Shown: positions 28,598 through 61,435 of the stretch, piece by piece
How positions within the stretch are numbered: the stretch's first letter is position 1
How the letters are laid out: the number at the start of each line of letters is the position of its first letter
Assembly: GCF_900105675.1 (NCBI RefSeq)
Contig: NZ_LT629786.1
Location: forward strand, 2,852,001-2,916,000
Direction: 5' to 3'
DNA from: Pseudomonas synxantha
Lineage (GTDB): Bacteria > Pseudomonadota > Gammaproteobacteria > Pseudomonadales > Pseudomonadaceae
DNA length: 64,000 bases
The notes under the pieces: model-generated
The model's database searches: none
The model's input: only the letters and a program-made list of their open reading frames with translations
What the model was told of the DNA's origin: nothing
Program-made: the position numbers and the translations under genes

Positions 28598-28686
28598 TGT
28601 GGGAGGGGGCTTGCTCCCGATGAGGGAGTGTCAGTGAACACATCTGTGACTGACACACCGCCATCGGGAGCAAGCCCCCTCCCACA
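28598..28686. repeat. REPIN-like paired inverted repeat 1
   Basis: TGTGGGAGGGGGCTTGCTCC at the left and GGAGCAAGCCCCCTCCCACA at the right form a long imperfect hairpin around a short core (CAGTGAACACATCTGTGACTG is also self-complementary). The same unit recurs at 29362, 30126, 33969 and 42736. It follows xylH and begins the first 764-bp tandem unit. Confidence 0.9.
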
Positions 28687-28857
28687 TTTGTCTGCATTCC
28701 AAATGAGGGGTTGGTGGCATTTGGTCATGGTTTTTAAAGGGCCAGCAAGGCGTGTCTCTTTAAATTGCAGGACGTTTCCTAGACAATCCCTGCCGCCTTG
28801 TGCCTGCTGGAATCGATGGCTAGTCTGCGGTCCGTCACTGCCAATTCAGTGATCGGG
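28687..28857 (+). other. Conserved region upstream of the leader RNA, copy 1
   Basis: This segment is almost identical to 29451-29621. It contains CCAGCA-AGGCG (from about 28742) pairing with CGCCTTG...TGCTGG (about 28795-28810), and the hairpin TCACTG-ccaatt-CAGTGA (28835-28852). No protein gene is supported here. It probably carries the promoter of the downstream small gene; I could not pick confident -35/-10 boxes. Confidence 0.5.
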
Positions 28858-29038
28858 TTTAGTCGCCCGGTATTCCAAAAGGCGCATGAACCACCCATGT
28901 TTTACGGTGGCTGTGCGCAGGGCGCCCTTGGGTGCGCCGGATTTTGCCTTTTGGCCGGTCGACTAACCTGCGTACAGCCGCCACCCTACGTTTAGTCGCG
29001 AAAGGTTCGGCTCCTTGAAACCAAAAGGAAGCTAAACA
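28858..29038 (+). ncRNA. Candidate structured 5' leader RNA, copy 1
   Basis: Several long pairings precede the small gene. TTTAGTCGcCCGG (28858-28870) pairs with CCGGTCGACTAA (28955-28966). CCAAAAGG (28875-28882) pairs with CCTTTTGG (28947-28954). GGTGGCTGTGCGCA (28906-28919) pairs over 14 bp, including two G-U, with 28969-28982, crossing the first two helices (pseudoknot or alternative fold). GGCGC/GCGCC (28921-28938) forms a small hairpin. TTTAGTCG recurs at 28991-28998 and could compete for the same partner. TCCTT (29012-29016) can pair with the ribosome site AAGGA (29025-29029) or with AAGG at 29002-29005. Copy 2 shows compensatory changes in the second helix. Confidence 0.65.
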
Positions 29039-29347
29039 ATGAGTAAAGTCCTACCCGACCCACCCCGCGATCCCGCAAAAGACCGCGCCGCCTTCAACCG
29101 CGCCATCGACCACTACCTGCCCACCCAAGGCTTCCACTGTGTCAACGAAGACCTGAGCTTCGAAGACGCCCTGCTCTACACCGCCAGTCTGCTCGATAGC
29201 GCCTCCGCCACCGCACTGGATTGCGGCGAGCTGCTGCAAAGCCCCGAGCGGGCGAAGATCCTGGCGGTGTGGCATTTGCTGGAAATTGCCAAGACCACGG
29301 TGGATCGCTCCATCGAATGCCTGACCTGCACAAAAGCCACTGCCTAA
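29039..29347 (+). CDS. Small DUF6124/DUF3077-like Pseudomonas protein, copy 1
   Basis: A 102-residue soluble, acidic-helical protein (KVLPDPPRDPAKDRAAFNRA; LSFEDALLYTASLLDSASA; RAKILAVWHLLEIAKTTVDRS). It has no signal peptide, and cysteines in the middle (HCVNED) and near the end (ECLTCTK). It resembles the small multi-copy DUF6124/DUF3077-type proteins of Pseudomonas, whose function is unknown to me. It differs from copy 2 only at residues 2 and 10. The AAGGAAG ribosome site lies in a possible hairpin of the leader. Confidence 0.85.
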   Translation: MSKVLPDPPRDPAKDRAAFNRAIDHYLPTQGFHCVNEDLSFEDALLYTASLLDSASATALDCGELLQSPERAKILAVWHLLEIAKTTVDRSIECLTCTKATA

Positions 29348-29361
29348 AACGCGGTTAAAAC

Positions 29362-29450
29362 TGTGGGAGGGGGCTTGCTCCCGATGGCGGAGTGTCAGTA
29401 AGCACATTTGTTACTGACATACCGCCATCGGGAGCAAGCCCCCTCCCACA
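29362..29450. repeat. REPIN-like paired inverted repeat 2
   Basis: Same GTGGGAGGGGGCTTGCTCCC / GGGAGCAAGCCCCCTCCCAC structure as at 28598, exactly 764 bp further on. It ends the first tandem unit and begins the second. Confidence 0.9.
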
Positions 29451-29621
29451 TTTGTCTGCATTCCAAATGAGGGGTTGGTGGCATTTGGTCATGGTTTTTA
29501 AAGGGCCAGCAAGGCGTGTCTCTTTAAATTGCAGGACGTTTCCTAGACAATCCCTGCCGCCTTGTGCCTGCTGGAATCGATGGCTAGTCTGCGGTCCGTC
29601 ACTGCCAATTCAGTGATCGGG
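29451..29621 (+). other. Conserved region upstream of the leader RNA, copy 2
   Basis: Almost base-for-base copy of 28687-28857, with the same internal pairings and no supported protein gene. The near identity shows recent duplication, in contrast with the diverged positions in the leader downstream. Confidence 0.5.
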
Positions 29622-29802
29622 TTTAGTCGCCCGGATTTTGAACAGGCGCATGCTCCCATGAAGCTTTATGGTGGCTGTGCGCAGGGCGCCCTCGGGCGCG
29701 CCGGGTTCCTGTTCTGACCGGTCGACTAACCTGCGTACAGCCGCCACCTTCGTTTAGTCGCGAAAGGTGTCAGCTCCTTGATATTCAGACAGGAACTACA
29801 CC
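29622..29802 (+). ncRNA. Candidate structured 5' leader RNA, copy 2
   Basis: Equivalent of 28858-29038. The outer helix is kept (29622-29634 with 29718-29729), as is the crossing 14-bp helix (29670-29683 with 29733-29746). The middle helix changes from CCAAAAGG/CCTTTTGG to GAACAGG/CCTGTTC (29640-29646 with 29708-29714), so two pairs changed on both sides (A-T to C-G and C-G to G-C). The hairpin loop also changes with pairing kept (GGCGC ... GCGCC). TCCT at 29775-29778 can pair with AGGA of the ribosome site (29791-29794) or with AAAGG at 29763-29767. Confidence 0.65.
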
Positions 29803-30111
29803 ATGAATAAAGTCCTACCCGATCCACCCATCGATCCCGCAAAAGACCGCGCCGCCTTCAACCGCGCCATCGACCACTACCTGCCCACCCAAGGCTTCCA
29901 CTGTGTCAACGAAGACCTGAGCTTCGAAGATGCCCTGCTCTACACCGCCAGTCTGCTCGACAGCGCATCCGCCACCGCGCTGGACTGCGGCGAGCTGCTG
30001 CAAAGCCCCGAGCGGGCGAAGATCCTGGCGGTGTGGCATTTGCTGGAAATTGCCAAGACCACCGTGGATCGCTCCATCGAATGCCTGACCTGCACAAAAG
30101 CCACTGCATAG
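29803..30111 (+). CDS. Small DUF6124/DUF3077-like Pseudomonas protein, copy 2
   Basis: A 102-residue near-identical copy of the product at 29039-29347 (S2N and R10I). The cysteine positions and all other residues are unchanged, which indicates a recent duplication or selection on the protein. Ribosome site AGGAAC lies 7-8 bases before the ATG and can be masked by the leader. Confidence 0.85.
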   Translation: MNKVLPDPPIDPAKDRAAFNRAIDHYLPTQGFHCVNEDLSFEDALLYTASLLDSASATALDCGELLQSPERAKILAVWHLLEIAKTTVDRSIECLTCTKATA

Positions 30112-30125
30112 AACGCGGTTGAAAC

Positions 30126-30213
30126 TGTGGGAGGGGGCTTGCTCCCGATGGCTGAGTGTCAGTCAGTATCTGCTTGACTGATACACCGCTATCGGGGGCA
30201 AGCCCCCTCCCAC
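30126..30213. repeat. REPIN-like paired inverted repeat 3
   Basis: TGTGGGAGGGGGCTTGCTCC ... GGCAAGCCCCCTCCCACTTT. It starts exactly 764 bp after repeat 2, closing the tandem array. The flanking positions suggest that crossing-over between such repeats made the duplication. Confidence 0.9.
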
Positions 30214-36699: not shown

Positions 36700-36926
36700 A
36701 AGCGAGCCGCTCTTGATCTTGATCTTAGGCGCCCCGTTAAACCACGCTGGCCGGAATTCGACAGGGATTTGGGGGGTAAACCGGCAGGGATGCCGGTTTA
36801 GCCGCCCCGCGCCATGGATGGCGCGTGGCGGCGCCCCCCCAAATCCCTGTCGGATTACGGGCACACCGAGCCTGGGCGAGGTGCCGAGTGGTGGGGCAAG
36901 GACCTTTTGCTTACTTTTGGGTCCTT
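36700..36926. repeat. Structured ~400-bp intergenic repeat, copy 1, left part
   Basis: Near-identical to 61055-61306. It folds as nested inverted repeats: CGACAGGGATTTGGGGGG against the complementary CCCCCCCAAATCCCTGTCGG; inside it TAAACCGGCA-ggga-TGCCGGTTTA; and GCGCCATGGATGGCGC. It stops at 36926 where an IS element is inserted, and continues at 38188. Small frames across it are not real genes. Confidence 0.88.
36921..36926. repeat. Target-site duplication, left (GTCCTT)
   Basis: GTCCTT precedes the left end of the IS and is repeated at 38188-38193. The uninterrupted repeat copy near 61.3 kb has a single GTCCTT at this point, confirming it as the target. Confidence 0.88.
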
Positions 36927-61054: not shown

Positions 61055-61435
61055 ACCACGATGCGCAGCGAGCCGCTCTTGATCTTGATCTGCTTTTGTT
61101 CTCAGGCGCCCCGTCAAACCACGCTGGCCGGAATTCGACAGGGATTTGGGGGGTAAACCGGCAGGGATGCCGGTTTAGCCGCCCCGCGCCATGGATGGCG
61201 CGGGGCGGCGGCCCCCCAAATCTCTGTCGGATTACGGGCACACCGAGCCTGAGCGAGGTGCCGAGTGGTGGGGCGAGGACCTTTTGCTTGCTTACTTTTG
61301 GGTCCTTCCAAAAGTGAGCCGCTGTAAGAGCGGAACCCTAAGTGGCCGTTACCTAAATAATGGATATGTACTCGGTTTGATCCAAGATCCCGGTCGACTC
61401 TCAGGCCGCCATCGGGAGCAAGCCCCCTCCCACAT
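61055..61435. repeat. Structured ~400-bp intergenic repeat, copy 2 (intact)
   Basis: Uninterrupted copy of the repeat split by the IS at 36927. Nested stems: CGACAGGGATTTGGGGGG with CCCCCCAAATCTCTGTCGG (one mismatch), TAAACCGGCA/TGCCGGTTTA, and GCGCCATGGATGGCGC. The end is a half REP (GGGAGCAAGCCCCCTCCCAC, 61413-61432). It lies in the gap between the small gene at 60956 and cheB; no protein is supported here. Confidence 0.9.

Follow-up and report, generated by a model that had tools for sequence, protein, structure and literature searches.

C4 is a textbook phage antisense RNA. The heteroimmunity of phages P1 and P7 is recounted in passages of PMC12197685 and PMC5320573, and a section of PMC5320573 has the P1 antisense segment b' partly covering the ribosome site. 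Sections of the same paper report, for A. baumannii, 21 homologous C4-like Group 1 sRNAs in one genome, most of them with the C4 fold; their loops vary, and RNA-seq coverage suggests processing at a GGW site. C4 is also listed elsewhere, together with c4-a1b1 in a part of PMC2864571 and, for Xylella, together with isrK in a part of PMC12189769. Within the open-licence literature, a search on C4 antisense RNA and RF01695 found no title on DUF6124 units, and a search on DUF3077 and DUF6124 found PMC9630843 alone, a portion of which reports that a DUF3077 pseudogene in P. putida has gained an inserted base.

The DNA analyzed here, called the window, is a stretch of 64,000 nucleotides from a 6.84 Mb single-contig genome of Pseudomonas synxantha. 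It contains two tandem leaders, 764 nt apart, amid ordinary metabolic genes (Table 1). Both leaders include the known C4 antisense RNA (RF01695) behind its upstream target region (RF03163). The C4 matches cover the whole model (positions 1-87) with E-values of 1.5e-13 and 6.4e-16, and both exceed the curated cut-off of 45 bits; for the upstream target region, copy 2 lies above the curated cut-off and copy 1 just under it. The isrK model (RF01394) gave 38.1 and 35.4 bits in the two copies, below its curated cut-off of 50. An initial annotation of this DNA had known of no described element of this form, whereas RF01695 and RF03163 already describe C4 and its targets. It had rightly placed near-identical small genes behind both leaders, and the two proteins indeed differ at only 2 of 102 residues. 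REP-like inverted repeats (GGAGGGGGCTTGCTCCCGATG and its complement) lie on either side of the two units and between them, at about 28602-28683, 29366-29453 and 30130-30211, and the REP-like stretch is covered by many search matches. Elsewhere in the window, TwoAYGGAY RNA (RF01731, cut-off 43 bits) was matched at 36743-36869 and 61120-61246 with 61.6 and 61.4 bits.

Table 1. Features of the two tandem units, in window coordinates. Duplex energies are RNAduplex values (kcal/mol), which leave out competing folds.
Feature	Position	Strand	Evidence
Copy 1 promoter-like pair	28798..28826	+	TTGTGC 28798-28803, 17-nt spacer, TAGTCT 28821-28826
Copy 1 upstream target region (c4-a1b1)	28820..28873	+	RF03163 46.5 bits, 0.2 under curated cut-off
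Copy 1 target b1 (TTTAGTCG)	28858..28865	+	duplex with b' -18.0
Copy 1 target a1	28874..28885	+	with own a' -14.9; with copy 2 a' -8.2
Copy 1 C4 antisense RNA	28900..28988	+	RF01695 71.7 bits; closing stem 28906-28919/28969-28982
Copy 1 antisense loop a' (hairpin loop)	28944..28955	+	model match and duplex energies
Copy 1 antisense linker b'	28958..28967	+	model match and duplex energies
Copy 1 target b2	28991..29000	+	duplex with b' -8.7
Copy 1 target a2, with Shine-Dalgarno-like AAGGA	29020..29029	+	with own a' -11.8; with copy 2 a' -8.9
Copy 1 gene, 102 aa, DUF6124	29039..29347	+	PF19619 36.2 bits, cut-off 27
Copy 2 promoter-like pair	29562..29590	+	exact repeat of copy 1 (28798 and 29562)
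Copy 2 upstream target region (c4-a1b1)	29584..29637	+	RF03163 48.9 bits, cut-off 46.7
Copy 2 target b1 (TTTAGTCG, as copy 1)	29622..29629	+	duplex with b' -18.5
Copy 2 target a1 (with GAACAGG)	29637..29650	+	with own a' -14.8; with copy 1 a' -6.4
Copy 2 C4 antisense RNA	29664..29751	+	RF01695 81.2 bits
Copy 2 antisense loop a'	29703..29718	+	model match and duplex energies
Copy 2 antisense linker b' (as copy 1)	29721..29730	+	sequence identity
Copy 2 target b2	29753..29762	+	duplex with b' -8.7
Copy 2 target a2, with Shine-Dalgarno-like CAGGA	29784..29798	+	with own a' -19.2; with copy 1 a' -6.5
Copy 2 gene, 102 aa, DUF6124	29803..30111	+	PF19619 36.2 bits

The initial annotation had drawn an outer and a middle helix as the leader's own fold, crossed by a third helix. 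The sequences it named are all present at the positions given, including the return of TTTAGTCG at 28991-28998, within b2 of copy 1. However, the Rfam models for C4 and c4-a1b1 show that the first two helices are contacts between an antisense RNA and its targets. In the outer helix, b1 pairs with the C4 linker, b' (28858-28870, TTTAGTCGCCCGG, with 28955-28966, CCGGTCGACTAA). The middle helix is a1 with the hairpin loop, a' (in copy 1, 28875-28882, CCAAAAGG, with 28947-28954, CCTTTTGG; in copy 2, GAACAGG at 29640-29646 with CCTGTTC at 29708-29714), and two of its pairs are altered on both sides between the copies, a compensatory change that had been seen correctly. The crossing helix of 14 bp, with G-U pairs (28906-28919, GGTGGCTGTGCGCA, with 28969-28982, TGCGTACAGCCGCC), does exist and is the C4 closing stem. 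A GGT at the start of the stem (28906 and 29670) is a putative RNase P GGU site. We name the a and b segments by position, and the names may be swapped relative to the P1 papers.

The C4 hairpin loop and linker are unpaired in the model, and their targets lie both upstream (a1, b1) and downstream (b2, a2). The downstream a2 covers the Shine-Dalgarno-like sequence in both copies; this third site, absent from the initial annotation, changes along with the first two. Because this second target overlaps the ribosome-binding site, the DUF6124 gene behind each leader is most likely silenced by C4. In an alignment of the copies begun at 28700, the initial 171 nt, through b1, are identical. There are 36 leader differences: 19 among the 52 positions assigned to a1, a' and a2, and 17 in the other 287, the a positions having been chosen after the pairing was seen. 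The b address is identical in both copies and the a addresses are private, with every crossed duplex between the copies weaker than the cognate one (Table 1). Given the shared b address and the private a addresses, each window C4 prefers its own gene by pairing energy.

A promoter-like pair, TTG-17-TANNCT, recurs upstream of the target hairpin. In an alignment of 36 of 54 units, chosen by having a -10-like motif and aligned on it, the -35 place reads T in 35/36, T in 33/36 and G in 32/36. A generic consensus promoter scan gave no promoter at this site in the window. The first seven model positions of RF03163 fall on the -10-like element (in copy 1, the first 7 nt overlap), and these positions may not be RNA.

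The initial annotation would have been refuted had the two copies been the only members, but the family is far larger. The P. synxantha genome has 28 C4 matches, all above the cut-off. At E 0.001 it also has 28 c4-a1b1 matches, of which 8 exceed the cut-off. It has 27 DUF6124/DUF3077 genes at E 0.001 or better, one of them a fragment; C4 stands directly upstream of 22, three have an a1-b1-like leader without C4, and two have neither. Counted from the RNA, the 28 C4s precede a DUF6124/DUF3077 gene in 22 cases, other small proteins in three, a truncated gene in one (L023) and no small gene in two (L012, L016). Two further loci (L029, L030) keep the target region with a broken C4. The three C4-less genes with an upstream-target-like hairpin (L031, L032, L033) lack C4 before the ribosome site, their leaders score 46.0, 37.8 and 28.4 bits, below the cut-off, and among the C4s of the genome we found no trans partner with both contacts at cognate strength. 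One C4-less DUF6124 gene adjoins a PrrF RNA (160.2 bits) on the same strand (L034, 129-534). Across the genus, C4 was found in 110 of 119 genomes at E 0.001, the P. synxantha genome included (109 above the cut-off), and at least 73 of those 110 carry ten or more; at most 33 candidates were scored per genome, and the per-genome counts are lower bounds. A second Pseudomonas genome, G111, has 45 C4s when scored fully. In a sample of the class, C4 occurs in 18 of 274 genomes, P. synxantha included, and DUF6124 in 1 of 274, P. synxantha itself. One small genome has four C4 matches within about 1.4 kb (L221, G392:C9:1700-3092).

All antisense segments were paired with all targets within each of two genomes, taking 26 of the 28 P. 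synxantha units (L012 and L016, with no small gene behind, were left out) and the 30 of 45 in G111 that were given as loci. Cognate pairing gave z values of -11.6 (a'-a2), -11.8 (a'-a1), -10.0 (b'-b2) and -11.2 (b'-b1) in P. synxantha, and of -13.0, -13.4, -8.1 and -12.0, in the same order, in G111; the upstream contacts here include one unit with no upstream target (L003) and one with a wrongly picked target (L092). For each contact in both genomes, 0 of 20000 permutations equaled the cognate pairing, and eight crossed-contact controls gave z between -1.5 and 1.8. When a2 and b2 were summed, the own target was best for 17 of 26 C4s in P. synxantha and 14 of 30 in G111; for a1 and b1 summed it was best for 21 of 26 and 17 of 30. 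Specificity is graded, and cross-talk between units may occur. Among G111 paralogs whose proteins are at least 90% identical, the a' loops resembled each other no more closely than in other pairs (mean 0.46, 10 pairs); in P. synxantha, the two paralog pairs at least 90% identical had a' loops somewhat more alike (0.64, 0.69). We also considered selection for mutual insulation: within genomes, 1 of 26 pairs shared an a' core, compared with 150 of 2190 pairs between genomes, a difference that is not significant. The sole within-genome case, L135/L136, has the same coordinates on two contigs from a single assembly and could be a duplicate created in assembling.

Close relatives of the window protein, with flanks, are encoded in 142 stretches, from which 78 distinct loci were kept; the named loci are all Pseudomonas. 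C4 lies directly upstream in 76 of the 78; of the other two, L185 begins at a contig start and none was found in L202. In two loci (L199, L201), a2 and the start codon are missing and C4 is joined directly to coding sequence. Dropping four units without a clear start and five with repeated address sets left 67 units, with 28 a' cores and 4 b' types. Nearest relatives that differ in at least 4 of the 19 a' bases were then paired off. Double-mutant-cycle energies for a2 were below zero in 33 of 33 such pairs (-2.3 to -29.0) and those for a1 in 27 of 27 (-5.6 to -21.2), the a1 test covering the 56 units with b1 found and leaving out 11 of the 67. Loop and targets change together in evolution. The initial annotation had taken the leader to be structured and its pairing to be under constraint, and the C4 E-values and these matched changes bear it out on both points. 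The b address switches as a set, TCTGCTAACC going with TTTAGCA(G) in 9 units and TCGACTAACC with TTTAGTC(G) in 56, and two types occur once each. Mean identity across 59 units is higher in both C4 stem strands (0.96), b' (0.94), the b1 hairpin (0.87), the stretch before the b1 hairpin (0.84), b2 (0.76) and the coding sequence (0.73) than in a1 (0.46), a' (0.51), a2 (0.52) and the b2-a2 spacer, which varies just as much (0.53). The median dN/dS is 0.17 (496 of 500 sampled pairs).

Each leader is very probably a self-contained C4 antisense unit that controls its DUF6124 gene in a P1-like mode. A single promoter would give an RNA holding b1-a1, C4, b2-a2 and the DUF6124 gene. C4 would fold through its own stem and expose the hairpin loop a' and the linker b', each of which is, by computation, complementary to an upstream and a downstream target. 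By analogy with phage P1, RNase P would excise C4 from the transcript, and the excised RNA would bind b2-a2 in cis or in trans, leaving ribosomes unable to start and the gene off; a1-b1 would bind or titrate C4 as a further contact. Against the C4 reading we count the short a'-a2 duplex of copy 1, the graded specificity, the lack of significant avoidance of shared addresses and the c4-a1b1 score of copy 1 just under its cut-off.

A cis-acting leader, either a pseudoknot or a two-state, riboswitch-like device, would place the outer and middle helices in one intramolecular fold that controls the gene. The a1-b1 region and C4 do share a transcript and pair well (-14.9, -18.0), and the loop and linker, being unpaired in the model, could form that contact within one molecule. 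Yet the loop and linker also match the ribosome-site target, where the loop match covaries just as strictly (33/33), the family that the fold fits is described as an antisense RNA that is processed and acts in trans, and three DUF6124/DUF3077 genes keep an a1-b1-like leader without C4; we regard such a leader as improbable. The upstream contact could also act by attenuation, if C4 on a1 favored an intrinsic terminator between a1 and C4 and limited its own transcription. A terminator-like site is found there in 12 of 26 P. synxantha units (mononucleotide shuffles expect 1.7) and in 10 of 30 G111 units (expect 1.3), two units match the isrK model above its cut-off (L035, L126), and the IsrK RNA of prophage Gifsy-1 may share the layout. 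Among the 76 close relatives of the window units, however, the site is present in only 3 (expect 1.7). We found no terminator-like site between a1 and C4 in either window copy. Since the site is rare in the relatives and none was found in either copy, attenuation is a very improbable mode for the two window units.

Other readings concern what the unit is for. Its small protein, an antisense RNA over the ribosome site and many copies per chromosome would suit a type I toxin-antitoxin-like unit, in which DUF6124 would be harmful and C4 its RNA antitoxin. Phage operons under such RNAs contain lethal genes (P1 icd, P4 kil), which we count in favor of this reading. It is nevertheless unlikely: C4 and the gene lie on the same strand, apparently under one promoter; three family proteins had no PADLOC match and one folded model had no significant fold match; and three genes in the same genome lack C4. 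That the units are decaying prophage relics with no present function is scarcely credible. Some do look decayed, having no small gene (L012, L016), a truncated one (L023) or a broken C4 (L029, L030), but the low dN/dS, the matched changes in 33 of 33 pairs and the near-identity of the C4 stem strands all argue against it.

For the DUF6124 protein, AlphaFold2 gave a model with helices at 12-26, 41-64 and 70-100 (mean pLDDT 76.7). With that one model, Foldseek returned no match with an E-value as low as 0.001 (best 0.12 viral, 0.34 PDB), and a PDB sequence search with the window protein and a PADLOC search with three family proteins were likewise negative. The genes icd and ant-type antirepressor genes of the P1-type immunity operon are not downstream of the window C4s, where DUF6124 stands instead. 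DUF3077, a domain similar to DUF6124, stands behind C4 in loci that resemble mobile elements. A satellite-like immunity operon in G111 has the order AlpA-type regulator, C4, small ORFs, DUF3077 and DUF927 protein; its DUF3077 protein shares 47% identity with a chromosomal one of P. synxantha over 81 columns, and a tblastn search with it gave no match in phage records. Of three viral contigs with a DUF3077 relative, C4 lies just before it in two (L208, L210) and was not seen in L209. We call L208 and L210 P2-like because a nearby terminase matches gpP-like, a match barely above the cut-off. In L208 (1645-4228), a reverse-transcriptase gene (RVT_1) adjoins the C4-DUF3077 unit, and terminase genes are on the contig. 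Two G111 C4s (L128, L129) immediately precede Bro-N antirepressor-like genes; judged by eye, the neighbors of L128 resemble ordinary chromosomal genes. Of the 17 other C4-bearing genomes of the class, 10 were viewed, at 12 loci. C4 precedes an AntA or Rha regulator at two of these loci and a Toprim or DUF927 protein at two more, eight being left unclassified. The small protein behind another P. synxantha C4 (L014) resembles a G403 ORF between C4 and a Toprim protein (33%, 86 columns). The units probably arose from immunity operons of prophages or satellites and multiplied on Pseudomonas chromosomes.

The permease gene upstream of the window pair also precedes a unit in 12 named loci, in 5 of which the downstream gene is visible too and the unit is single. 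Among these 12 relatives at the orthologous locus there are six a' types. Pairing is strongest within a type, and most crosses are much weaker, but some are as strong as -11 to -13; the loop of L131, for instance, gives -12.8 on the target of L146, whose own loop gives -14.1. One of these loci, L201, lacks a2 and its start codon, and no upstream target was found in L137. The copy 2 loop equals that of L131 and the copy 1 loop that of L130, and the window genome carries two of the six address types in tandem. We infer that the tandem pair arose by recombination between two alleles. More speculatively, and with considerable doubt, the addresses of the C4 family may behave like immunity types, escape from the resident C4 driving address turnover while the protein stays unchanged. 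An incoming unit with the resident address would then be silenced at once and one with a new address expressed, different species would hold different address alleles at one fixed locus, and escape would proceed as between phages P1 and P7, across a large natural set of matched antisense-target pairs.

As far as our literature searches reach, gene-linked, address-diversified, many-copy C4 in Pseudomonas, with address alleles at one locus, is new. Totals of 28 and 45 C4 per genome contrast with the textbook phage role, and almost all complete units come with matching targets of their own and a small gene behind. The proposal is a first regulatory hypothesis for DUF6124/DUF3077 genes. The units also provide many matched antisense-target pairs, distinguished by a loop of about a dozen bases, with which the evolution of antisense specificity in three separated sites at once becomes testable.

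Among the described systems, the P4 CI RNA, in the parts of PMC4825925 that treat it, resembles these units as a processed antisense RNA between two complementary sites (seqA, CI, seqC) in an immunity operon, and the satellite-like G111 locus adds to the likeness; CI, however, acts by transcription termination, whereas we found no site resembling a terminator in the window units between a1 and C4. The IsrK/STnc1160 pair of Gifsy-1, from the same parts of PMC4825925, combines a short upstream RNA with a processed RNA downstream, the two having complementary sequences in common; L035 and L126 exceed the isrK cut-off, and the window copies fall below it. For the A. baumannii Group 1 sRNAs, sections of PMC5320573 describe targets as not identified and propose co-option to other RNAs, whereas each complete unit here has matching cis targets and a gene. 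The C4 of phages P1 and P7 fits the same model and likewise has a target region ahead of it, two antisense segments, a ribosome-site target and, in passages of PMC12197685 and PMC5320573, loop differences giving separate specificities. Unlike in those phages, the gene behind is DUF6124 rather than ant, and there are dozens of chromosomal units with many address types, even at one locus.
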